From: Ecdyonurus torrentis
Taxonomy: Eukaryota; Arthropoda; Insecta; Ephemeroptera; Heptageniidae
Direction: 5' to 3'
Length of the DNA stretch: 64,000 nucleotides
Assembly (NCBI GenBank): GCA_949318235.1
Contig: OX439130.1
Location: forward strand, 37,437,851-37,501,850
In this document: positions 12,082 to 56,463 of the stretch, piece after piece
How positions within the stretch are numbered: the first letter of the stretch is position 1
Layout of the letters: each line of letters begins with the position of its first letter
Notes under the pieces: generated by a model
Seen by the model: only the letters and a program-made list of their open reading frames with translations
Told to the model about the DNA's origin: nothing
The model's database searches: none
Made by a program: the position numbers and the translations under genes

Positions 12082-15000
12082 TTACTCCACATAATAATCT
12101 CCTAGCCTTCTAGGAACTCGTGGTGTTCTTTGGCTTCGTCTAATAGGGGTAGACGTGACCAACTCAGGTGAGTTAGTACTGTTAGCAGACAGATCTCCTA
12201 CTCCGCTAATGGAACCAACCGGGGTTCGGCTGGGAGTACAGGCGTTGGTTGATCTGCCTGACTGATTTCCTGAGCCTGGTGATCGGATGGCCTCTCTGCT
12301 TGTCTCGTTTGAACCATTCCTGCTGGACACTGTAGGTTCTGTAACGTACGTAACAGGGGTTAACTTAGGCAATGCATTAGTTACAGGGTTACAAGTATAT
12401 GGTGATTTTTTCACTGGTAACTGAGTATGGAGGCTGGAACAATCAGGATTAAAAACATTTGCTTTCTCAACATAACGTTTCTTCATGTTGTCTGGATGGT
12501 AGAATCTTGTGGTTTGATTGTCAAACTGTACTTTATATTTTCTCGGCCCCAATACTTCAACTACCCTAGCTGGCAACCATGCTAGTTTCTTCTGTTTATA
12601 ATCTTGCGCCCATACCAAGTCTCCCACCTGATAATAATACTTGTAGCTCTGTGTTGCTTGTGCTGCTTCTTCCTCCCTTTTTGGATATTCTTTACGTTCA
12701 TACAATGGATGGAATGTGTCCCAGAGCGTTCTAATTTGCCGTCCATACATTGCTTGTGAAGGAGATATTCCTGTGGTTGCTGATGGAGTGGTCCTCAATT
12801 CTAGTAATATTTCAGGAATTTGAGCTGACCATTTTTCCACTGGAATTTTTAACATCATATTTTTAATTGTCTGTACTGTTCGTTCGGCTTGCCCATTACT
12901 AGCGGCATGGTACTCTGTCACTGGAATGTGTGTAATATTATACGTATTTATAAATTTGGTAAATTCTGCAGACTTGAATGCTGGTCCATTGTCACTTACG
13001 ATTATATCTGGCAATCCCCAGTTTGCGAACCAGTTTTTTAATATTTTCACTACTGTGTTGGTTGACAATGACCCGTGAGTTTCTTCAACGGCTGCCCACT
13101 TGGTGCTGGCATCCACTGCTATGAAAAAAGTTCTTCCTTTCAGCGGACCAAAAAAATCAACGTGTACTCTTGAGGCTGGAGGTGATGGTGACCATGGTAT
13201 TCTAGGAGCTTGTGGTGGACCTCTTTTCATGGCATTACATGTAGCACAAGTTTTTCCTAGATCTTCAATGTTTTTATCAATGTGTGGCCACCATACATAT
13301 GCTCGGGCTTTGTTCTTCATGCCGCTTATCCCGATGTGATGTTTATGCAGCAGCTCTAAGATTTTTTCTCTGCATTTAAGTGGGATGACCACTCGGTTTC
13401 CATACAGTAAGCATCCTTTTACTATGGACAATGCCTCACTATTCTTTTGGTACTCCGAGTGCAATTCCGTCAATGAACCACCATGCATTAGTATAGCCAT
13501 TACTTTAGCTAGTATTGGATCTCCTCTGGTTTCTTTGGCAATCATTTTTACAGACCACTCTTCTGGGGCTTGCTCCATAAACAGAATGCCTGCTGGTTCC
13601 GGAGGATCCTCGACACTGGTTGTGGCTATAGGAAGTCTACTGAATACATCCGCGTTAGCATGTTGTTTCCCAGGTCTGTATACTAATCTATAAGAATAAT
13701 TACTCAAGTATAGAGACCACCTAAGCATTCTAGGAGATACTGTTTCTGGTATAGGTTTATCACACTGAAGTAACCCTAGCAATGGTTTGTGGTCTGTTCG
13801 TATAGTGAAGGTTCTTCCAGCCACGTACATGTGGAACTTCTTGACCCCAAATACTACGGACAGCGCTTCTCTGTCTATTTGAGCATAGTTTTTCTCGCTG
13901 GGTCTCAGGGTTCTGGAAGCATTGGAGAAAGGTTTTTCTTCGCCGCCTGGCATCACATGACTGATTTCAGCTCCCACTCCGACAGAACTTGCATCGGCAT
14001 CTAGGATGATGGGTAGGTTAGGGTTGAATAAGGTAAGCTCAATTTCTGAGCTTAGCACTTGCTTGACATAATTCAGGGCATCTTGATGCTTTTGGGTCCA
14101 TACCCATTCCGCTCCATCTACCAATAGTTGATATAGCGGGTGGAATAACGTAGCCTTATGACGCAGGAACCTGTCGTAATAATTTATATACCCCAATAAG
14201 GATTGCAGTTCACCCTTCTCATTGGGGTTGGGCATCTTCATCAAGGCTTCAACCTTAGACTGGGTAGGCTTCACTCCTTGTCCAGACAAGAAGTAACCTG
14301 CGAACTCTAGCTGCAACACACAAAACAAGCATTTTTCTTTATTAAGCCGGAGCCCTGCTTCTAGTAGTCTAATCAATACAGCTCTTGTACGTTCCCATAG
14401 GAGTGCCACAGATTTTGCAGCCACCAAAATATCATCGTAGTATGTTAACACTCCGTCCAATCCACACATTAATTGTGATATAATTCTCACAAATATGGCC
14501 GGGGCTGATGACAACCCCGGGCTCAATCTTAATACCCTAAATAGTCCCAATATGGTATTAATCGTGAGTATCTTTGACGTCTCCTCATCTACAGTTATCT
14601 GGTTGAAAGCTCTAGCCAAATCAAGTTTCGAGAAGTATTTTACATCTCCTAATTTATCTAACATATTCTGTATGGTTGGCATAGGGAAAACTTCGGTGAC
14701 ACATTGTGGATTGACAGTTCCTTTGTAATCCCCACATATCCTCAAAGTCCCATCTGCCTTTTCTAAATCTATCGTTTGAGAAGCCCACTTAGAAAATAAT
14801 ATGGGCTTCATATAATCATCATTCTTAAGACGAATTAACTCACGCTTGACACGTTCCTCCTTGGCATAGGGTACACTTCTCGGCTTCATGAACTTTGGTG
14901 TAGCTCCCGGCTTCATCTCGATGGAGGCTGGTGGTCCAGTGTACTTGCCCAGCCCGGCTGCAAACACTCCTTCGAGCCCCCGCAGCTCCACAGGGAGTCC

Positions 15001-16440
15001 TATCAGCGCTTGGTCAGCCGTCTCCGCTGAGGTGAAGTGTACTGTCTGTATGCCGCTCACTGCAATTCCCAGGGCTGAAAACCAATTACGTCCTAATAAA
15101 GCAGGTCCTGGTGAATTCATGACTATAAGTGGCAACATGCACGCCCTATCCTTTATTTCCACTAACACCTGGAGACACCCTTTTACAGCTAAACTCTCCT
15201 TTGACCAAGTGTTTATCTTGGGCACGTTAGTCTCCAATGATGTTCCGTCAGGCCATAGTTGAGTAAATGTGTCCTGGCCAATTAAGCTACAACTTGCCCC
15301 ACTGTCTACTTCAAACACTACTGACTTCCCTGCCACTTTTAGACTTAACAATATAGGAGTCACTACATCAGACTCCCCCTCTTTACTATCCGCATGCATC
15401 ATAAACAGGCTATACTCAGACTGTTCCCACTTGTTCACTGCTGGTGACTCGAGTTCTCTCCTCTCCTGCTGAGTTGGCCCCTCGGTGTCCTCCTCTTCTT
15501 CCTCATCTTCCTGTTCTGCACTGACGTAGTGTGCTCGAAAGGTTTTCTCTCTTCTCTCTTTCCCTCTTCCTGCATTATGCAGTATCTGGTTTCTCCTCAC
15601 TACACATACCCTTTGCAAATGTCCTCTCTGCTCACAACAATCACACACAGTATTAGTGTGTGCACACTGGCTACCGTCATGATAGCTTGACCCACAGCGG
15701 AAACATTCCGCTCTGGCACCTCTGGCTTGGGCGCTTCCCCTGGTTCCTCGCCCCACTTGTGTGCCCCTTCCCCACTGACTATGGCCTTGGCCTGGAAAAC
15801 TTCCACGGTTTCCTCCTCTGTTTCTTCTCTCTGTCATTCTATGAATAACCTCCTCCCCCCCTTGATTTTCAAACCTCGCTGCACTCTTCATTGCCATCTC
15901 CGCAGCTTCTGCTTTTTCTCGTACCACCTGTAATGATAATTTTGACATTTCTAAAAATGTTTGACGTAATTTAGAGTCTCTCATTCCCGCTAATATTTGC
16001 ATTAGCATGCATTGTTCTACGTCTGTGAAGTTACATTTGACACTCAACCCGTTCAGTTCAGCAATGAACTGTGTCAAAGCTTCATTTGGTTTCTGCATAC
16101 AACATAAAAATTCATATCTTAACACCCATATGTTTGGTTCTGGATCATAATAACTTTTCAAAATTATGACAATTCTTTCAAACGACAACGATTCTAAAGT
16201 TTCTGGAGCTTTAATAAGTTTTTTAAGTTGCTTGAACACATTCTTGCCTATGACTGTCAATAATGTGTTCTTCTGTCGTTCTGTTTCTCTAATTTGGTTT
16301 GCCTTAAAATAATAATTTAGATGGTCTATGTAATTCGAAAAAGACTCTTCTCCTCCAGGAATAAATTCGTACGTAGTTCCTACCGTACCCAATACCATGT
16401 AGACAGGTGGTGGATGCTTCGTAGACTCGTCTTCTGACAT
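12082..16440 (-). CDS. Gag-Pol polyprotein of Ty3/Gypsy retrotransposon
   Basis: One uninterrupted 1452-aa frame starts 66 bp inside the primer-binding site. The N-terminal third is Gag (retrotransposon-gag-like block, about residues 30-190), followed by an RG-rich stretch and a zinc knuckle starting CFRCGSSYHDGSQC (about 245). The aspartic protease shows VDSGASCSLIG (about 378). Reverse transcriptase has YYDDIL (about 667), followed by RNase H with LDADASSVGVGAE and TDHKPLLGLL. Integrase has the HHCC finger (HHIGIS..CATC, about 1031-1070) and a DDE core with HVDFFG, VSDNGPAF and NGQAERT (about 1093-1185), then a GPY-like module (VVEVLGPRKYKVQ). All catalytic motifs look intact. There is no envelope frame. 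Confidence 0.96.
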   Translation of the reverse strand: MSEDESTKHPPPVYMVLGTVGTTYEFIPGGEESFSNYIDHLNYYFKANQIRETERQKNTLLTVIGKNVFKQLKKLIKAPETLESLSFERIVIILKSYYDPEPNIWVLRYEFLCCMQKPNEALTQFIAELNGLSVKCNFTDVEQCMLMQILAGMRDSKLRQTFLEMSKLSLQVVREKAEAAEMAMKSAARFENQGGEEVIHRMTERRNRGGNRGSFPGQGHSQWGRGTQVGRGTRGSAQARGARAECFRCGSSYHDGSQCAHTNTVCDCCEQRGHLQRVCVVRRNQILHNAGRGKERREKTFRAHYVSAEQEDEEEEEDTEGPTQQERRELESPAVNKWEQSEYSLFMMHADSKEGESDVVTPILLSLKVAGKSVVFEVDSGASCSLIGQDTFTQLWPDGTSLETNVPKINTWSKESLAVKGCLQVLVEIKDRACMLPLIVMNSPGPALLGRNWFSALGIAVSGIQTVHFTSAETADQALIGLPVELRGLEGVFAAGLGKYTGPPASIEMKPGATPKFMKPRSVPYAKEERVKRELIRLKNDDYMKPILFSKWASQTIDLEKADGTLRICGDYKGTVNPQCVTEVFPMPTIQNMLDKLGDVKYFSKLDLARAFNQITVDEETSKILTINTILGLFRVLRLSPGLSSAPAIFVRIISQLMCGLDGVLTYYDDILVAAKSVALLWERTRAVLIRLLEAGLRLNKEKCLFCVLQLEFAGYFLSGQGVKPTQSKVEALMKMPNPNEKGELQSLLGYINYYDRFLRHKATLFHPLYQLLVDGAEWVWTQKHQDALNYVKQVLSSEIELTLFNPNLPIILDADASSVGVGAEISHVMPGGEEKPFSNASRTLRPSEKNYAQIDREALSVVFGVKKFHMYVAGRTFTIRTDHKPLLGLLQCDKPIPETVSPRMLRWSLYLSNYSYRLVYRPGKQHANADVFSRLPIATTSVEDPPEPAGILFMEQAPEEWSVKMIAKETRGDPILAKVMAILMHGGSLTELHSEYQKNSEALSIVKGCLLYGNRVVIPLKCREKILELLHKHHIGISGMKNKARAYVWWPHIDKNIEDLGKTCATCNAMKRGPPQAPRIPWSPSPPASRVHVDFFGPLKGRTFFIAVDASTKWAAVEETHGSLSTNTVVKILKNWFANWGLPDIIVSDNGPAFKSAEFTKFINTYNITHIPVTEYHAASNGQAERTVQTIKNMMLKIPVEKWSAQIPEILLELRTTPSATTGISPSQAMYGRQIRTLWDTFHPLYERKEYPKREEEAAQATQSYKYYYQVGDLVWAQDYKQKKLAWLPARVVEVLGPRKYKVQFDNQTTRFYHPDNMKKRYVEKANVFNPDCSSLHTQLPVKKSPYTCNPVTNALPKLTPVTYVTEPTVSSRNGSNETSREAIRSPGSGNQSGRSTNACTPSRTPVGSISGVGDLSANSTNSPELVTSTPIRRSQRTPRVPRRLGDYYVE

Positions 16441-16505
16441 TTTTCTTCCTTGATCCCTTCACACTGCACACTAAAATCCGTTCATTATGTCGCCATCTCG
16501 CATCT

Positions 16506-38267: not shown

Positions 38268-41200
38268 TTAGGCGGGTGGAGTGTCAACAGTGGTAGTATT
38301 TGATGCAATAGATTTGCTATCACACTCTTTGTTACCCTTTTCTGAAGAAATGAGCCACGGCATGCGCTTGCTCAGTGCTTCCCTATGAAAAGAACAATAA
38401 AAATTAGTAATTAAGTCCAAATATTTATTAAAATACTTTTAATTTTCCATTTGTAGTCTAATCACTGCTATATTAATACCATAATAGTACTTTTAGTTTA
38501 TTAATATTATATATTAATTTTGTATTTAAAAAAAAAGTATCAGACCCTTTTTTTTTTTTTTTTGCATATTTTCTAAATATATGCATATAATTATAAATAA
38601 TAATAATAATAACACTGAAGTAAACATTTAAGTTGAATAGGAATACACATCCGTAAAGTAAAAACTTAAATTGTAAATAAATGATAATAAATAACTGTAT
38701 ATTTTCAAAATAATTTTGTGACTCAAAAGTTTTCTGAGGACTCAAGAAATGATATATAAATGCCAGTGTAATGTTTCAATAGATATCCTTTTTGTATAGA
38801 GCTTAATTAATGGGGTATAATCTGACCTGAACTTAGGATGGCTGATGGCATAGACCCAGGGGTCAATGCATGCCACAGTTTTGGAGAACATGGCAGGTAT
38901 CATGGAGGCAAATGGTGTGAGTACCGCACGGTTAGAATGGAAAGCTCCCATTAAAGCCACCGTGGCATAAGGTGTCCAGGCTGAGAGAAAGAGGAAGAAA
39001 ATTCCACATGCGATTTTGGCAATTCTGATCTCAGCAGATTTTTCATCACTTTGCCCCGCTGAAAGAGATTTGACACCCATTTTCTTCGCCTAAAAGTCAA
39101 CAATTGCAGTTACATTAAAATATGATAAAATTGTAATTGACATAAAAATATTGTGTGTGTAATTTTGTTTGACAAAAGAATACTGCTATGTTTACACACC
39201 TGATCAGCAAGCATTCTCTCGTGTTCCTTGACGTGCATTAAAATTTTTGAGTAGAAAAGCACGAGCAGAGTCACGGGTATGCAATATGCGTATGTGAAGA
39301 TACACAGAACGAACACGCGCACGTCTTGGCTCTCAGTCAAGTAGTCGAACGAGCAAGTTGTCAAGTAGCCCTCTAGACACCAATTATTTGCATGGTTAGA
39401 ACATTTCTTTGTATTATTTAGTGTACATAAGTAAATTTATATTATGTTGTCTACAAAATAATATGTCTTTTTTATACACATTTTTAATTCACAATACTTA
39501 TAATTTTTATAGTCTCATGAAAGAAATAGAATTGATAACTATACGATTAGCACATAGTCATTGGAATGAAGAAGAAGAAGAAGAAAAAAAAAAAAGGTAT
39601 CAGAAAGTTTTATTATTATTTTTATATCATACTTGCAGTTTAACATGCATTTATTAAGAAAGCATACCTGGATTATATCTGTTCCAAATTTGCAGCAAAG
39701 GCATCGTAGAAAATGGTACTGTCCAAATCCAAACCATTATTACAAAGAATATAGCTTTTTTCATTGAAAGACGGCCATCCATAGGGTTGGAAATGCTCCT
39801 ACAGAAAAAGTTTAGTTAAGGGAGTAGGGTACCGACCTTATATCTCAAAAACTAGAAGTGTTTTGGATCTAAATTTAGTGTCATTGTGTAGCTAAGGGTC
39901 ACACCTAGCCGTGATAAAAATTTTATGATGTTTGACCGTCCCGAAAAAAAGAAAAAAATTATTGAAATTGATAACATTGGGTCTTATGGGCTTAAAATTT
40001 CAAAAAATCATATAAAATTAATTTCCACGGTGACCCTCCAAAATTTTTATATATTTGAAATTGTCTCAGGCTGAAGTATCATCGTGCAAAAGTTCAGATT
40101 TTTTTGACGAGAAAAGTTTGAGTCTAACGGCCGACGTCGGTCCCCTACTCCCTTAATATGATAACATTTATGCTATATGCAGAACACTGCGGATCATCAT
40201 TAAATTTTATCCTTGTAATTTTTTAAAATAATTTATATTTTAACTTTTTGTTTTAGAAAAAACTACGTTCTATAAAATTGGAATAAATTATAAATTTTAC
40301 TTATTTATAAATAATTTAGTAATTTTAACAATGTTTAATAAATAATTAAATAATAAACTTTTATTATCAGTTCAGATGAGATCTTCAAAATTGCAACCTT
40401 CTATTATTATTAAACACAATTAATGGTTTAATTGCGTTTTTTGTTAATGTTTTTGAACAGTTTTATTGCTTTTTCTTATTATTAAAATATATATAACAGT
40501 CAATTTTATAAGTTTGGTGTGTATACGCGATTATTAACTGTACTCATTAATTATAAGTTATAACTGATTTATATTATAAGTAAAAATAAATATACCGCGT
40601 ATTGTTGTGTGTTGTATGTCAAAGTAAAGCTATAGGTTGTGTGCGCATGACGTCATTCTGAATGCTTTTCGATGCTCTTTTGAGCAATGAATAACATTGC
40701 TCAGCATAGGACAAACGTAGATTTTTGCTATTTTCTTTGGAAAATAAGCTAATTTTTTGTTATTATTTTTCTTGCATACTTGAAAAATAATTCAACCTGT
40801 TAACATGAATGCTCTCAAAAATGTTTTGAAGTATTTTTAAACTGGCAAAATGAGTCATTTTCCTATACATGGTCCATGTTTTTAGCGCTCCCTTATGGCG
40901 TCGACTTTAACATGAATGCGAAACCACCCTATATAGAGTCTATAATTATTGAGTATTTAAAATTTTAGAGTAAAAAAAAAAAAAAAGTTTTCCACTCACC
41001 GGTATCTATCGTAAGCAATTGCGACATTGTTCACCGCAGCTCCCATGCCACCGACGGCCCCCAGGAATCCAAACATATCGCATCCAAACTGGCCCATCAC
41101 CTGGCCCTGGTAGAGCGAATTAGCGATGAAGATTGGCAATTGCAGCATCATGACCATATCAAGAACCGCTAAGTTTGCAACGAATAAGTTGGAGGACGTA

Positions 41201-47376: not shown

Positions 47377-48873
47377 TCATTGACAACAGCTCTCGACATC
47401 AACAAGATATGGACTATCGAGAGCTCCAAGGCCTGCTGCCACACCCCCTTCATTTGTGGTGCTCAACTTGGTGCGCAGCATATGACCAACTTGACTGTTC
47501 TCCAGTATCTGCTCAGCGTCTCTGCAGAAAATCATCAAGTCAGTCATTAGTTATAGTTGAGCAAGAAGCTAATATCACAATAAAAAATGTGAAATAAAAT
47601 AGCCACTTGATCATATCATAATTAATTGGTAATGTAATTTTTATTTCAATACAATGAAAAAAATAAAAATAAAAATCTATATCAACATCAATGACAGATT
47701 ACTATTCAAGTCTAGGGCTTAAAATAATTAATTATTTATATTTGCTCACCCTATAATGACACCAAATATTCCAAGCTCTCCTACAACGTCAACAAGAGGT
47801 GGTGAGCAGTTTTCAGGATCACCAGGTCGCACCATGTAGTTGCTCTGCATGGGGGGCACAATCCTCTCCATCAAGATCCATGCTGAGCGCTCCGAGGAGT
47901 CCTTCATGGCAGCCAGTGCCGAGCGAACCTCCTCTCCATACACATTATTGCCCCCACCTTCCCTCTGAGGCTTGAGCACGTAGTGGCCAGGCCTCTTCAT
48001 TGCCATCTCAACTGCTTGCTCTCCAAACTCATCCTAAATTTAAAAAAAAAAAAAATTGTCAGCATTATTTCCTTAGAGTAAATAGTATTCTATAAAAATA
48101 TATTTAAAAAAAATTAATGTGAGCGTACTTGATCTAATGAGTAAAGTCCAGTGAAAATCTCCCGCACTGCCTCCCACTTGTCAGGTGACCCTAGCAGTTC
48201 CTCCAGTATTCCAGGCCTTGCTAGTGACTGCTGTACCTTCTTGGTACCTGCCAAGTGGTAATGGATGCTGGGACACTTGATGGCTGCCGAGCGCTCTATT
48301 TTTAACCTCGCTTCCCACTCCAGTTCCCCGTGGTAGTGGCCTGGTTCATACCCTGCACGGAAGTAAACTACTGCTACTTCGTGACCGTCACTGCAAGCAA
48401 ACATCACATTAGTGATTGACTTTTTTTTTTATTATTTTTTTTTAGCATTTTACATTACGTAGTTAAAAAGTATATTTTCAATAAAAATACTTCTTTGTCT
48501 CAAACTTAAAAGATTTTTTTTCCCCTGAATTATGATTACTATGTTTTCAAAAACAATACTAAATAAATAAAATAATTTGATGATGCTATTTTGAATCCTA
48601 TTATTGTTACTCACACAATCAGCGATTTGGTTGGAGAGAGTGTTGCATTGCCCAGTTGTGTCAATGTACGTCGCAAAACTTGAACCTCGGGGTTTTGTCT
48701 CCGAATCTCAAACTCGTGGAATCTCTGGTCACAGATGTTGTATGACACATCTTCAATCACGAACAAAACCACTGCCCTGAACCAGAACAACAGGTAGCAT
48801 GTTAATTAACTTGCTATGAGATCTTATTTATTTAACCCCACTTAACAAGTTAAGTATTCCCCTCAACACACAA

Positions 48874-48928
<55 letters not shown>

Positions 48929-49967
48929 ATACTGATATATAAAAAAATATATGCAGACAAATTGTCTTGTTATTTGTCTTGTTTTTATTGACACTACAAC
49001 ATTTTGAACTGGAGTTAGAGAACACTTACTTTGGATTATTGTATATTTTCCACGCATGCAACATCCCTTGACACAGTCCTTGTAGTGCGTTATTCTCAGG
49101 CAACTTAAACATTAAGATAAACATATGAATTAAACTTAAGAATTTAAGTATATATTATACACTATTATTCAAAATAAATATATTTATATACAGGGAATAA
49201 TTTATTATTATTATTTTTGCAACATATACATAATATAATATCATTCTACTTCAGAATGCACGTATTCAAAATCATGTATGTAAACCAACAAGTAACAATA
49301 AAAGGAAAAATATTTCATACTATGGTGTACTATTCATTTTGTATTTAGTTAAATATCTTGCCCTTGTTGCGTCCAAACGGTGTACTTGCATTTCAAGGTC
49401 GTCTTACAAAAGGTGTAATTGCATTTTTATCCAGTACCACAAAGGACGTACTTGCACTTGGTTTTACATGTTAAGCTTATGGCAGATGCGCATGCAGCAT
49501 CAAATGTAGCCAAATGCAAGTATGCCCCTTTGCGAAAAAGTATCCAAATGTAAGTATGCCCTTTGGATGCAACAAGGGCGATCTATTAGTTCAAATGGGA
49601 AAAATCTGAACAGGTATTTTTCTGAAAAATACATTCTAAAATAATAAAAATGATAAAATTAATAAACTAACAAATATAAAACATAAAAGAACAAATTAAT
49701 GAATAATTAAAAAGAATTATATGAAAATAAATATATTGCAGTATTTAAATTGATATTTTTTTCTTTATTTCTTGTTTGCATATTGCTGTTTTAAAATACA
49801 TTTAAAAAGGTTTGTTAAACCAAGTAACATGTATTTATTTTCTGTATATTATGCCTGTGGTCATTTGTATATAAGAATATTAAATCATTATACATGTAAA
49901 AAAAAAAAAAAACTTTTTTTCATTTGCAAAATGAGGCTGAAAACGGCAATGCAGTGTTCTTATTAAG

Positions 49968-50007
<40 letters not shown>

Positions 50008-53000
50008 GAGATAAAGGTTTAAATAACTTACATTTTTTAACATATCACGATGTCCAAGTTCCTGAAGAACATATCTGCAAGAAATGAAGAGCATTGTTGT
50101 AGGTTACTGCTCATGATGCAAATTTAGTAACATGTTGCCCATTTTTGCTAGCAGTTATTCATGTATAAATTTTATTTCAAATTTATTACAGTAAAAAAAA
50201 AAAAAAAAAAAAAAAAAACATGCCTGTAAAACATATAAAGTAAAAGTCAATTAAGCATATTTAATAATTGCGTAGTTATTAATTTATTAAAGTGTATAAA
50301 TTAAGAATATTAATGATGCTTTAATTTTGCAAATTAAAGTTAAATAATATTTTGTATAGCATTATATTTTATAAAGTAAAAAGGGAAGACATAATAATAT
50401 AATATTAATTGCTGTAAAAGCTTTTCATACCCAAAACGATAAAAAAAATCATTGAAATTAATACAAAAATATAACCAAGCAGATACGGCCCAGGTAAATA
50501 AAAAAGATACAAAAAATATGAAGGCAAATAAATGAGTAAACACAGAACATTAAGACACCATGCATATAATTATAAATATTTAAAATGCAAAACTCTATCT
50601 CCCCCTCTTTCAAAACGCTCAGAATTGTATTGTTCAATTCAAACAAATCACGAAATTTGAACTTTAATTTGCAATTTCGTTATAAATCAACCATTTCTAT
50701 ATTTTATATAGTAAATTATTTGTCGCTAATTTTAAGCGCAAACTTTAACATTGCTATGTACATATATACAGTAAGTATACTGTACATAAAAGCTTTAAAA
50801 CCGCATATTTTATATTCACACTCCTACCATTAAATTTGTGTTCCTTAGTATAGATTCAGCAGACTTTAACAGCTCACTTTTAACGATTTTATTCTTATTT
50901 TATACACGTTCTTTATTTCATAATATAAAACTATTTAACCATTAGTTACAGGGGCAATTTATTTCCATTTTATGCAAATAATTCACACATATCATGCAAT
51001 ATTCAGAATATAGAAAGAGTGTATGTGCAATTTTTTTTATAACAAACAAATGATAATAATAATATATAATACTGTATATAAAAAAGGGTTGCTTGCTTAA
51101 TTAAACCAAGTAATTTTGTACCTTTATCAGTCAATCAATATGTGCTCAAGCTAATTTATTGTTATTGTCGATATACAGACACACTGCTGCAAAGAAACGC
51201 TTTTAGTCTTCAATCCATGCAATATAAAGTGCAATTTTTATTGTTGAGCATGATATGACACAATAAACCTTGCTTTTTTAATGTCGTTTAATTTATTTAT
51301 TTTTCATTTCGATTTTATTTCAATAAACGCTTTTTTTTTTTTTTTTTAATTTAGTGCATAATTTGTGTACGGTCGGTATGGTAGGTCAAAATAACAAATG
51401 ATTAATATGTAAATATTTTCAGGGATACTGCTATGCTTTTCACAAAAAAATTATAGGCCAAGATTGTTTGCTTTAAAAAACAACTCACTGCACCAAACAG
51501 TCTATAAATTATGCATAAGAATAATATAGTAGAATGTGTTGCGTACCTATGCATAGTCACTAAGTGAGTAGAAATACCGCCAAAGCTAGAGGCGACCGTG
51601 TTAATCTCGACTTGTTTTATTTCTGAGCCAGTGTCACAATTGAGGAGATAGTCCGAGCGTAAGAGTCCCAGGCTGACGCGCTGCAACAATCAAGTCAAGA
51701 CATTTGCGCCATAGCAGCCATGAGGAGAAAGAAAGAGAGATAGAGATCGCAAAATGGTAAATAATAATACTAATACTAATAAAAAAGTCAACACACACCA
51801 CGCAGAAATGCGCATGCAATACATTACTGCTTGTCAAAAATATCTGTGTTTGTGAGCAAATTAGGCATTTCAGTGGCCTAGTGATAAGAAATAACTCACA
51901 TAATAAATAGTAGTCATTTTAACAAAGTTGTTATTTTCTTCATCATTAAACGATTTAAAACTTTTCCTATCACTAGACTGCTAAAATGTCAGTCAGAAAA
52001 TGGTTAACAGGGCTGCGTCATTAGGATCCAGAAGACGGAAGTACCTATGAATGACCCCCGATGCTGGTCCTAGCCAGCCAAATCCTGAGGCTATCGTGTT
52101 GATTTCCACTTGCTTCCAGCAGCAGAATGGGCCTTGCTCTGAGCTGCATTTATCCGAGCAACTCGACTCCAGCATGATGTCCGAGCGAATCAGACCAAGG
52201 CTTATAGGCTGTACAGTTGTGGGGTCAAAAATACATAACATGCAAATATCAAAATTGATACTGTGTCAGCTAAATGCTAGACCACCTTTAGCGATTTTTC
52301 AAGCTATTGGTAGCATTAGATTTAAAGCAAATAGATCATTGATAAATATCATTTTATATTATTTCGCTGATAATAGAGAGTACCATATATTATTACCATG
52401 GTATAATTGTTATCTAAGAAATATATATTTATGTTTCTATTAAAAAATAAATAAACATCAATCAATCAATTTCCACGGCCAAATGCATGCAAAATGATAT
52501 ATTTTTAGAGTTCTTGTGTCTACCTGAGTGATGCCTTCTTTCCTCACAGTCTCGTAAAGTTTAAACAGACGTCCTGTAAAATTGTCCACTTGAATTGTAC
52601 TGAAAAAATTAGGGATAGTTATTATTATGTAATTAGATTGGTCTAAAATCTAATTGAAAGGGGGAGAGCTTCATCAAAAACTCGTCAAACATAATTATAT
52701 TTCTATATAAGTACAGAAAAATTGTCTCTTAAGTTCTGATGGTAGTTTAAATTTCTAACACATGCTATGAATGCTCATAGTTTATAGAAACTTTTTGTAT
52801 GTAAACCTGTACTTTGTAACGTATGGTATCAATGTGTACATATAATAATTTTATTGTCCATTTTATGTCTACCTTTGTAAACTGGAGAGTAAAAATTCAT
52901 AGTCGTGAGCTACTTTGTGCATCAGCTCATTGAGGACAGGCTGGATAGCTACAGCTTTCTCAAACTCCTTACGAGGAAAAGTTGATGGCAGCAACACGAA

Positions 53001-54522
53001 TGGAGCAAATTGAAGTACGTCTTTGTTCAAGTTCACTTTAGAACGCATACAAGCACCTGTTTATAAGACAATCGTGTAATTTTAGTATGTATCCGGTATG
53101 TGTATGAATATGAATGTTTACATCATATGCATGTACAGTCACTATAGTAAGAAATGAATTTTGCAGCACGCATATATGGGAAAACCATATAAACATACAC
53201 AAAGAGTGGGTGGTGGGTGGATGTCTACATATTGTATGCAAGGTCTGGGTGGGTCTGGGTGCCTCACGACAAGAGTTCCCAAGCTGCCTGCTTGCTGTAT
53301 GCCAAGTTCTAGCAAACAAAAAGAAATACATATAGGGTGTATGCGGATGACGTCATATTTATTGCGCTTGGAGGCCATACTGGAGTAGTGCATAACATTG
53401 CTCAGCATAGGACAAACTTCATTTAAGCCAAATTTCTTTGTGAAATCGGTTAATTTTTTGTTATAGTTATTTTTCTCACATACTTGAGATACTAATTCAA
53501 CATATTTACAGCATCAATGCTCTCAAAAATATTGCATAGGTAGTGGTTTTAAACTTGCAAAATGATTTTTTTTCCTATGCCACCCATGTTATTGAGTTAT
53601 CCAACATGGCGTTGACTTTAACATGAATGCATAGACCCTATAGACACTATATTTTATTGGTCTATAAACCATGTGGATTGTTGATGACAAAGATTTCTCC
53701 TCTCTTCTCAACTATCCGTAAGTTTGTGGTGGGAGATAACTCACCCACCACAAACTCTCCCTAGTTTGTGGCTGGTTTGTGGTGATCAAGATGACCCCCC
53801 CCCCCCCCCCCCCCCCGCTTAATACGTATTACCATAGAGAAACAGTATAGAGAATGCAGCTAAGGCAAAATTGATGTCGTTGAAAGTGGGGGAATGTTTA
53901 CTAATGTTGGAAGCAGTAGCAACCTTGACAAAGAGAGGGCGCTGAGTGTATTTTTTATTTACAGAACTTAATAAATTTCTGTAAATAAAAAATACACTCA
54001 GCGCCCTCTCTTTGTCAAGGTTGCTACTGCTTCCAACATTAGTAAATATTTACGCTTTTTCAACGACATCAATTTTGCCTTAGCTGCATTCTCTATACTG
54101 TTTCTCTATGGTATTACCAGTAGTTTTCTCTGTTGTATTTTGTATTACGTATGCATGGTTTTCCCATTATGTTATACTGTATACTGTATGTAAACGCCGC
54201 AAAATTCATTTCACTATACTTGTACATAGTGGTTGTACGTATGTACAACACATTACATATTATATGCATGATGTTACATTAAATCATTATAGGGTGTATG
54301 TATGTACAGCGTTATCCCAGAAAAGTCGGGATCACAAGTGATCACTTGTTAGAGCCATTTAGAAATCGTTCCATCGGGTCCATCCTTTGCCGTTTCTGCG
54401 AATATGATTTAAAACAACTTACCATGCATCAATGCCCAATCTTTTGCTTTCTCTATAACAGTCTCCAGGACATCTTTGTCAAGTGGTACAGGCAAACACG
54501 GCATCATTCGTGGGTTCGACAT
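47377..54522 (-). CDS. GSS: Glutathione synthetase with two alternative substrate-site exons
   Basis: Minus-strand exons: 54423-54522, 52873-53056, 52524-52599, then either 52045-52208 or 51547-51680, then 50032-50074, 49030-49103, 48615-48776, 48129-48390, 47750-48033, 47377-47521. With the 134-bp exon the protein is 487 aa, with the 164-bp exon 497 aa (human about 474). GSS is the cytosolic ATP-grasp enzyme that joins glycine to gamma-glutamylcysteine. Recognisable are the ligand motifs LxRSD and VEINT, the NICDQR block, [38 protein letters not shown], the ATP/Mg-binding [15 protein letters not shown] glycine-rich loop, ILMERI, ELGIFG and the terminal GHMLRTK (glutathione-binding Arg/Lys), followed by the alanine-rich loop [11 protein letters not shown]. 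Every junction keeps phase. It is divergent from PHOSPHO. Confidence 0.95.
48872..48930. repeat. (AAAT)n microsatellite
   Basis: About 14 tandem aaat units lie in a GSS intron. Confidence 0.95.
49360..49580. mobile_element. MITE-like element in GSS intron
   Basis: The termini are gcccttgttgcgtccaaa and the inverse of tttggatgcaacaagggc. Inside, the motif 'acttgca' (or its inverse) recurs at least five times, giving a sub-terminal repeat structure. Confidence 0.75.
51547..51680 (-). other. GSS alternative exon, downstream version (134 bp)
   Basis: It is bounded by acceptor ttgcag and donor ag/gtacgc. It starts in phase 0 and ends in phase 2. It encodes [13 protein letters not shown], a short linker and [14 protein letters not shown], then HR. 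It is the version closer to the usual animal enzyme, keeping the serine and glycine-glycine of the SFGG loop. It replaces 52045-52208 in the mRNA. Confidence 0.85.
52045..52208 (-). other. GSS alternative exon, upstream version (164 bp)
   Basis: It is bounded by acceptor gtacag and donor ag/gtactt, with the same phases (0 in, 2 out) as the 134-bp exon. It encodes [14 protein letters not shown], then a 10-aa longer cysteine-rich linker ([17 protein letters not shown]), then [14 protein letters not shown]. The metal-binding Glu/Asn pair is kept, while SFGG has become GFGW. It is open throughout. Confidence 0.85.
53331..53642. mobile_element. MITE with TATAGGGT ends, copy 3 of 3
   Basis: It is inverse to 20029-20346 and very similar to it. 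It starts tatagggtgtatgcggatg, carries atgacgtcat at 53347-53356 and ends agaccctata. It is in GSS intron 1. Confidence 0.88.
53832..54111. mobile_element. Long-hairpin MITE with TATTA duplication in GSS intron 1
   Basis: It starts ccatagagaaacagtataga and ends with the inverse. The arms are near-perfect inverted copies for about 130 bp around a short centre near gaacttaataaatttc. The 5-bp repeat TATTA flanks it (53827-53831 and 54112-54116). A pure poly-C tract (about 53797-53817) lies just left. Confidence 0.88.
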
Positions 54523-55731
54523 TGTAGCGCAGTCGCGCAGTATGGACGCCAGGAAACGAATTTCTCTTGAAGAAAATATATGTATATTGCTCTAAGACAC
54601 GATCAAAATTTGAAACTTTTCTTCTTCCAGAAAAGAACTACGTGTGATTAAATTATGAATTGTGCGTGCAAGAGTCTAAAAAATATACTTGTCAGTTTTT
54701 TGCAGTATGCAAATTTCGGAATACTGCTTGCCTGTTATCTATCGCCTGTTGCCACGCCTTCTATTTTCCACCCTGGTTACGCCCACATACGCCCACATTT
54801 ATGTGAAACAGCTGTCTCACTCTCAACGAAGAGTAAACAAAAAAAATTGTTTATATAATTAATTTTACACTGAAAAGATAACTTTTAATTGCATGAAATT
54901 TTAACTTAATTAAAATTTGACCTATATTAAAGTAGTTGTAAGTATGATTAAACAGGTAAATAAGGCAAGGGAAACAAATAAAATTGACCTTGCCATCCAT
55001 CTGTCAGATCGAAGATTAGTCAATGTGTTTTTGGGATCGAGTCAATATTTATTTTGCTGATGAAATTTTCTGTTAACCATATTTATTGTTTGAATTATAT
55101 TAGGTCAGTTGCATATACAACAGCATAGTTGCTGTAAGCTGTATATAAGTGTGAACATACAAAGTTATAAGAAAACGATTAAGTAAGTTCTCCAAATTTA
55201 AAACCACATAGTTTTTTTTTTTTTTTTTTTTTTTTTTGAAACTTCCTGGTTATTGTTTATTTTGTTGTATTTTGTTTAAAAGTTGTAAAGGCATTGACAA
55301 AAATGTACAGTACAACATTCATAGTAATTGTTTACTGTATGTATGTACATATGTATACATATATATATATATATATGGCTATGTTATTATGACTCCATTT
55401 ATTATAAACAATTTTGAGGGAGTCAATCTGTATGTAGTGAAATGAATTCGAAATGTTCATTTAATTTTGTACGTCCCAGCATGCATTTTAATATAATTTA
55501 AATGTGTTTTCATCCCTAATGTAATGGTTGCAGGCTCTAAAATTGCTATCGTAGGTCGTTTGTTACCGGTTTCTATGTTTGTTAAAAAGCTTACAAAAAT
55601 AATGGGCTAACTTTAGAATTTTAGAGATAATACTGGGTGGTATGAGCCTTTCTTGAATGTTTACATATCTTCATCCTTTTTATGCTGGATTAATTATGTG
55701 TTTATAAAAAAAAATCGTTCTTTTTCAGATA
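54523..55731. other. Divergent intergenic region between GSS and PHOSPHO
   Basis: It should hold both promoters. It contains a poly-T tract near 55212-55237 and a (TA)n run near 55362-55377. An acceptor-like tttttcag ends 3 bp before the PHOSPHO ATG, so a 5' non-coding exon is likely, but it was not located. Confidence 0.5.
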
Positions 55732-56463
55732 ATGCGTCGACTTTTGATGGCGTTTGACTTTGACCACACAATCATTGATGACAACAGTGATATTGTGGTT
55801 AGGAACATGCTAGGACAAACTCCTATCCCTGATCACATCAAGAAGATGTACCGCACTGATGGTTGGACAGCGTACATGCAAAATATTTTCCAGCTTGCAC
55901 ACTCTCAAGGCATAACGCAAGAAAGTATCTCTGAGCAGATTGCTAAAATTCCCTATGTGCCTGGCATCGATGTGTTATTGAGCTCGCTAGAGAAAAGAGA
56001 CGACTGTGAAGTGATCATAATATCAGATTCTAATTCAGTATTTATTCAAGGGTGGCTTGAGAGAGCTTCGGTTGATCATATTGTCAATAAAACTTTTACC
56101 AATCCAGCATGGTATGATGAAGAGGGGAGACTCAGGATCAAAAAGTACCATGAGCAAGACTGGTGCAAGTTAAGTACCAAGAACTTGTGCAAGGGTCATA
56201 TTTTGCAGTCGTACATTGAGGAACGAGCCAAAGATGGAGTAACCTTTGAACGTATTGGCTATGTGGGTGATGGGAAGAACGACTTATGTCCTTGCCTCAA
56301 ATTGTCTGCTACAGATCTGGCTTTTCCTCGGCATGGATATTCACTTGCCAAGCTCATAGAGAAACCAATGGAACACAAGATCAATGCTCAGATCCATATA
56401 TGGCAATCAGGACATGAGATCTTAGAAACAGTGAATAAGTTTGTGCCACCTAACTTAAAGTGA
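55732..56463 (+). CDS. PHOSPHO1/PHOSPHO2-type phosphatase (HAD family)
   Basis: One coding exon encodes 243 aa. HAD-superfamily motifs are all present: motif I FDFDHTIID (D-x-D-x-T, nucleophile and acid/base), motif II IIISDSNS, and motif III/IV YVGDGKNDLCP. The blocks NSDIVVR, YMQNIF, CKGHIL, FERIGYVGDG and DLAFPRHGYSLAKLI match the PHOSPHO family. Vertebrate PHOSPHO1 hydrolyses phosphocholine and phosphoethanolamine, and PHOSPHO2 pyridoxal 5'-phosphate; invertebrate members cannot be assigned to one substrate by sequence alone. The coding part lacks introns, although a tttttcag just upstream suggests a spliced 5' UTR. A poly(A) signal is at 56873-56878. Confidence 0.95.
   Translation: MRRLLMAFDFDHTIIDDNSDIVVRNMLGQTPIPDHIKKMYRTDGWTAYMQNIFQLAHSQGITQESISEQIAKIPYVPGIDVLLSSLEKRDDCEVIIISDSNSVFIQGWLERASVDHIVNKTFTNPAWYDEEGRLRIKKYHEQDWCKLSTKNLCKGHILQSYIEERAKDGVTFERIGYVGDGKNDLCPCLKLSATDLAFPRHGYSLAKLIEKPMEHKINAQIHIWQSGHEILETVNKFVPPNLK

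Follow-up and report, generated by a model that had tools for sequence, protein, structure and literature searches.

This study revealed a pair of exons, very probably mutually exclusive, within a single arthropod gene for glutathione synthetase (GSS), from which two folded GSS proteins would be made. The gene lies in a stretch of 64,000 nucleotides of the mayfly Ecdyonurus torrentis (contig OX439130.1, positions 37,437,851 to 37,501,850), hereafter called the window. Splicing in a script and homology define it as complete and intact on the minus strand, at 54522-47377. It comprises 11 candidate coding exons, 10 of which would enter each mRNA, and every splice site is GT-AG. The parts of the gene are the following:

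54423..54522, minus strand: GSS coding exon 1 (donor ATG/gtaagt; spliced frame; start codon at 54522 placed by homology)
52873..53056, minus strand: GSS exon 2 (splice sites and frame; alignment to human GSS 2hgs)
52524..52599, minus strand: GSS exon 3, constant, upstream of the A/B pair (spliced frame)
52045..52208, minus strand: exon A, alternative pocket exon, 164 nt (frame, homologues, donor TAG/gtactt)
51681..52044, minus strand: intron between exons A and B, 364 nt
51547..51680, minus strand: exon B, canonical-like pocket exon, 134 nt (frame, homologues, donor TAG/gtacgc)
50032..50074, minus strand: GSS exon 5, constant, downstream of the A/B pair (spliced frame)
49030..49103, minus strand: GSS exon 6 (spliced frame)
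48615..48776, minus strand: GSS exon 7 (spliced frame)
48129..48390, minus strand: GSS exon 8 (spliced frame)
47750..48033, minus strand: GSS exon 9, carrying the ATP-grasp loop (spliced frame)
47377..47521, minus strand: last GSS coding exon with the stop (spliced frame)

Exons A and B are adjacent homologues in the same orientation, with 47% identity in the aligned segment. Two homologous exon-like blocks at 52208-52045 and 51680-51547, separated by 364 nt, had been predicted in an earlier note made from the letters of the sequence alone, and these coordinates, together with the acceptors and donors, are exact to the base. Exon A is bordered by acag/CCTATAAG ... CATTCATAG/gtactt and exon B by gcag/CGCGTC ... 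TATGCATAG/gtacgc, which gives each an AG acceptor and a GT donor. Both are entered in phase 0 from exon 3 (end 52524) and left in phase 2 into exon 5 (start 50074). These shared phases and the open frames, also predicted, were confirmed by splicing: A alone yields 497 amino acids and B alone 487, each with a single terminal stop. The further claim, that with lengths of 164 and 134 nt the inclusion of both exons or of neither would break the frame, was borne out as well. At the canonical sites, A plus B runs into a stop at codon 196 and the omission of both into a stop at codon 130. The choice of A or B is thus enforced by the reading frame, because the other combinations at these sites stop early.

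Over the 38 aligned codons, identity between A and B at the three codon positions is 0.63, 0.79 and 0.32, a pattern of coding constraint that is beyond chance. Among the codons that specify the same residue, 11 of 20 are identical, compared with 6.9 expected at random; as 20 codons are too few, the duplication is not datable from synonymous divergence. When exon A alone was used as the query, relatives were found at E-values down to 1e-32. A G at position +5 is absent from the donors of exon A (gtactt), exon 3 and exon 2 (gtagac) and present in that of exon B (gtacgc), which is identical to the exon 8 donor. Donor strength was considered as a cue for the choice and rejected as not diagnostic, since the constant exons 2 and 3 also lack the +5 G.

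Both isoforms score above the TIGR01986 equivalog cut-off of 329.8 bits (A, 476.3; B, 500.2) and align with human GSS across nearly its full length. They share Arg125, Glu144 and Asn146 with the known eukaryotic enzymes (human 2hgs, yeast 1m0w, potato 5oes), and the fold predicted for an A-type relative (P0002) is the common GSS fold. By score and predicted fold, A is a member of the GSS family. Among the best 120 of 5515 matches, the full B isoform is closest to those of other mayflies, namely Cloeon dipterum (77%), Neocloeon triangulifer (76%) and Ephemera danica (73%), and identity to non-mayfly insects is 70% or less.

The same exon pair, which the earlier note had suggested seeking in related genomes, was found among database proteins. 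The exon A segment returned 187 matches and the A segment of the copepod Tigriopus 174, of which the best 120 each were listed. The 243 proteins that were fetched were typed by their better match to the A or B segment of the window; 141 are A-type, 85 are B-type and 17 contain both. In 22 other named species, A-type and B-type proteins are 99.8-100% identical outside the segment and 41-59% identical inside it by local alignment (47% in the window). Identity outside the segment is 100.0% in 21 of these, comprising Folsomia, Chrysoperla, two Tribolium species, Arctopsyche, two Anopheles species, Menopon, Uranotaenia, Ischnura, Hetaerina, Ctenocephalides, Gryllus, Graphocephala, Bacillus, Nicrophorus, Onthophagus, Zophobas, Periplaneta, Cloeon and Neocloeon, and 99.8% in Anoplophora. 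Near-identity outside combined with divergence inside indicates one gene with alternative exons rather than two genes. The Cloeon pair with 100% identity is formed by P0003 and P0124, and a separate record, P0122, shows 97%. A B-type protein of Tenebrio is 99.8% identical outside the segment to an A protein without a species name. The A segment is also present in protein P0240 of Drosophila melanogaster. No A-type protein was found outside hexapods and copepods among the recognised named records within the best 120 of 187 and the best 120 of 174 matches, many of which are nameless.

Transcript-like records point in the same direction. From the listed matches of the exon A, full B isoform and Tigriopus A searches, 52 records were picked by hand whose sole or main source is a short contig of 1.3 to 8.4 kb (the 273-residue P0037 was excluded); 32 carry A, 20 carry B and none carries both. 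In 37 of them (23 A, 14 B) the contig is shorter than 2 kb and extends only 50-522 nt beyond the frame. With so little additional sequence, these contigs are almost surely spliced transcripts, and the longer ones are less sure; the short-contig sources as a group are presumably transcript assemblies. The species pairs, the cDNA-like contigs of both types and the difference at Ser151 described below support the proposal of the earlier note that one gene would make two enzymes differing at the substrate pocket.

The evolutionary history of the segment was assessed with a tree of 55 segments (29 A, 24 B, and human and potato GSS as the outgroup) over 45 usable columns. The A segments form one clade, with support of 100/97 from a bootstrap that had not settled, and the springtail Folsomia and the copepod Tigriopus fall within it. 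We also compared 24 A/B pairs (the window, the 22 species and the Tenebrio pair) over 44 shared columns. The A segments have a mean identity of 0.77 and the B segments one of 0.61; in 275 of 276 species pairs conservation is higher for A, which indicates that A is not a decaying copy. The stronger constraint therefore lies on the less orthodox exon. The exon pair is both real and ancient, ranging from springtails to flies.

With regard to the substrate pocket, 129 of the 142 A segments and all 86 B segments, the window included, were aligned with human GSS, whose numbering is used here. The 13 A segments that were omitted come from drosophilids; they carry a long insert and are 108-132 residues in length. 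The earlier note had placed the substrate-contacting arginine and the Mg-binding glutamate and asparagine in this segment. They are indeed present, but Arg125, Asp127, Glu144 and Asn146 are invariant in both A and B, and the differences in the window lie elsewhere, at Ser151/Gly, Gly154/Trp, Tyr128/Ile and in the loop between. B retains Tyr128 in 86/86 and Ser151 in 84/86 segments. At position 128, A has leucine (100/129) or isoleucine (21/129), followed by Met129 and Leu130 (129/129 each), Cys138 (127/129) and Trp140 (124/129). A glycine replaces human Ser151 in 129/129 A segments, tryptophan or histidine replaces human Gly154 in 126/129, and Gly156 and Pro157 are found in 129/129 and 126/129, respectively. 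The A loop is rich in cysteine, variable in length and usually ends in CCW; including this motif, it contains three to five cysteines in 123 of the 142 A segments, whereas 51 of the 86 B segments have none. Gly151, Trp/His154 and this insert set A apart from the known eukaryotic enzymes. Both isoforms differ from these enzymes in having mostly alanine at Ser149 (129/129 A, 82/86 B) and threonine or serine at Glu214.

In the Trypanosoma brucei GSS structure (PMC2845819), the gamma-glutamyl moiety of glutathione is bonded by the equivalents of human Arg267, Ser151, Glu214 and Asn216, and its cysteine moiety by those of Arg125 and Ser149. On this basis, the change of Ser151 to glycine would cost isoform A one gamma-glutamyl contact. 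A motif count at the position of Glu214, a gamma-glutamyl contact in other GSSs, gave threonine or serine in 237 of the 243 fetched proteins, of both isoforms.

Cysteines were also observed in the constant region. A cysteine at human position 268 (RCGY) is present in 66 of 141 A-type proteins versus 1 of 85 B-type proteins, and one in the KPQREGGxNN loop in 41 of 141 versus 0 of 85. The distribution of these cysteines suggests a change where A may stand alone. Five of the 12 hymenopterans that were inspected carry both.

The fetched set contains 47 hymenopteran records, isoforms X1 and X2 of Bombus fervidus among them, and each is A-type; they were retrieved by exon A searches. No recognised hymenopteran name occurs among the B-type records in the best 120 of 5515 matches of the B search. 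A hymenopteran gene without B is a lead, and should B indeed be missing in this order, A would have to make glutathione. Many hymenopteran GSS models (592-741 amino acids; P0018, P0023, P0028 and others) contain an additional PF02582 domain, from either a fused gene or read-through.

Taken together, exon 3 would be spliced to either A or B and then to exon 5, the choice being made by splicing factors, and mRNAs containing both or neither would be removed by nonsense-mediated decay. Isoform B would be the ordinary enzyme, which joins gamma-glutamylcysteine to glycine. Isoform A would be a second folded GSS in which the catalytic set of arginine, glutamate and asparagine is kept and the gamma-glutamyl subsite is rebuilt (Ser151 to glycine, Gly154 to tryptophan or histidine, Tyr128 to leucine or isoleucine), with the cysteine-rich loop beside it. 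Provided that the exons are real, we give even odds to A being an active ligase whose substrate preference, presumably for the donor, or kinetics are altered. In favour of this is the lead that the fetched hymenopteran records are all A-type. That A is a redox- or metal-responsive form by virtue of its cysteines is possible but doubtful.

An alternative, which we consider unlikely, is that isoform A is inactive and serves as a regulatory partner in GSS dimers. Glycine at position 151 throughout the aligned A segments would fit this, given that Ser151 bonds the gamma-glutamyl moiety in known GSS (PMC2845819), as would the dimeric state reported for the T. brucei enzyme. It is opposed by the invariance of Arg125, Glu144 and Asn146 in A. 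The exclusively A-type hymenopteran set would also be hard to explain if A were unable to make glutathione, with the reservation that this set was retrieved by exon A searches and that the B search is represented by the best 120 of its 5515 matches.

Several observations weigh against a strict choice between A and B, or against the comparisons on which it is based. Models holding both segments account for 17 of the 243 proteins, with A ahead of B in 17/17, the order seen in the window, and nine are joined directly after GFGxLGP. The B partner that scores best in Tribolium castaneum, P0141, is an unusual model, with exon A in a different frame ahead of B; the regular isoform X2 (P0128) is likewise 100% identical outside the segment. 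The database isoform pairs are partly automatic gene models. The B segments do not form one clade (2 changes), the B segments of Menopon and Folsomia being long branches, so that the duplication is timed by the A clade and the paired species rather than by a rooted split. Finally, the three introns that surround A and B showed no competing RNA structure with one another: the lowest 60-nt duplexes were equalled by 13, 3, 2, 14 and 11 of 30 shuffles, in a test of low power that covered one genome and, for the long intron, only the first and last 500 nt.

The two-segment models raise the alternative that a donor inside exon A joins A to B and gives a third, longer enzyme, and their occurrence in several insect orders and a springtail speaks for it. 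We judge it quite improbable, as each of the 17 comes from genome annotation or a reference database, the two segments never occur together in the 52 short-contig records, and A plus B at the canonical sites of the window leads to a stop; the tandem models may be artefacts of gene modelling or represent a rare third form. An origin of A and B in two separate genes, or in merged models, recalls the recent tandem GSS duplication in Drosophila melanogaster (PMC6814777) and is rejected, since both exons lie inside one gene in the window and identity outside the segment is complete in 21 other species. We equally reject the idea that exon A is a dead or decaying duplicate, despite its missing Ser151 and variable loop, because its frame is open and its phases are correct, it exceeds B in conservation in nearly all species pairs, and 32 cDNA-like records represent it in relatives.

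Mutually exclusive exons and GSS relatives with altered roles are kinds already known, and isoforms X1, X2 and so on are named in automated annotation; what is unusual in this pair is the active-site location of the exon and its conservation. Soybean homoglutathione synthetase (3kal) and the GSS-like proteins of the potato cyst nematode (5oeu, 5oet) have the same fold and are structural matches 2, 5 and 11 of the A-type model, but they are encoded by separate genes, whereas the GSS described here would be changed by an alternative exon. Pyruvate kinase PKM is an enzyme retuned by a mutually exclusive exon pair. Exons 4a/4b of OGDH form another such pair (PMC7969005). In both, as in GSS, two adjacent alternative exons act within an otherwise constant enzyme. 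The GSS pair differs in that its alternative exon forms part of the substrate pocket and in its range, which extends from springtails to flies; an A-type protein also occurs in a copepod.

The earlier note knew of no described case. This fits the literature searched, but automated annotation already carries the isoforms. Among the papers listed by text searches, several of which were limited to the top 20, there was no description of the GSS exon pair; a 2009 Toxicological Sciences paper, reportedly on Drosophila glutathione synthetase and arsenic, or a catalogue of Drosophila mutually exclusive exons, said to have appeared in Nature Communications in 2013, may list it. The sole paper found to contain both 'glutathione synthetase' and 'mutually exclusive exons' concerns FAM50A. 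A term search of the main texts of PMC3228551, PMC6071210 and PMC3303723, which deal with such exons, did not find 'glutathione'. The accessible parts of PMC10449164 and PMC6814777 describe Drosophila Gss1 and Gss2 as duplicates and do not mention the exon pair, and those of PMC5535947 and PMC2656526 contain nothing further on it.

Other features were observed in the window. Intron 1 of the GSS gene contains a near-perfect palindrome at 53826-54117, with 144-nt arms that are 94% complementary and a 4-nt spacer, which resembles a foldback mobile element. Directly upstream of the gene, on the opposite strand, an intronless frame of 251 amino acids at 55708-56460 (plus) matches PF06888 (putative phosphatase). 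An exon-like frame at 38745-39089 (minus) matches the rhodopsin-family 7tm domain, and its SKTVACIDPWVY stretch resembles the opsin retinal-lysine region. At 12085-16458 (minus), an open frame of 1458 amino acids with aspartyl protease, reverse transcriptase, RNase H and integrase constitutes the polyprotein of a Ty3-like LTR retrotransposon.

A single gene probably provides insects with two different glutathione synthetases. More tentatively, and short of an even chance, hexapods and at least one copepod lineage may keep a second GSS, in hexapods through alternative splicing, whose rebuilt site and cysteine-rich loop would serve a separate job, either the synthesis of a gamma-glutamyl peptide other than glutathione or thiol or metal sensing at the active site, under stronger constraint than the ordinary form. 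The stronger conservation of the form that lacks the substrate-binding serine is unexpected and allows a direct biochemical test. Detoxification and redox balance in insects depend centrally on glutathione, and its synthetase is usually regarded as a single enzyme. If many insects use a second version of the pocket by splicing, RNAi, knock-out and expression studies that pooled the forms would have mixed two proteins.
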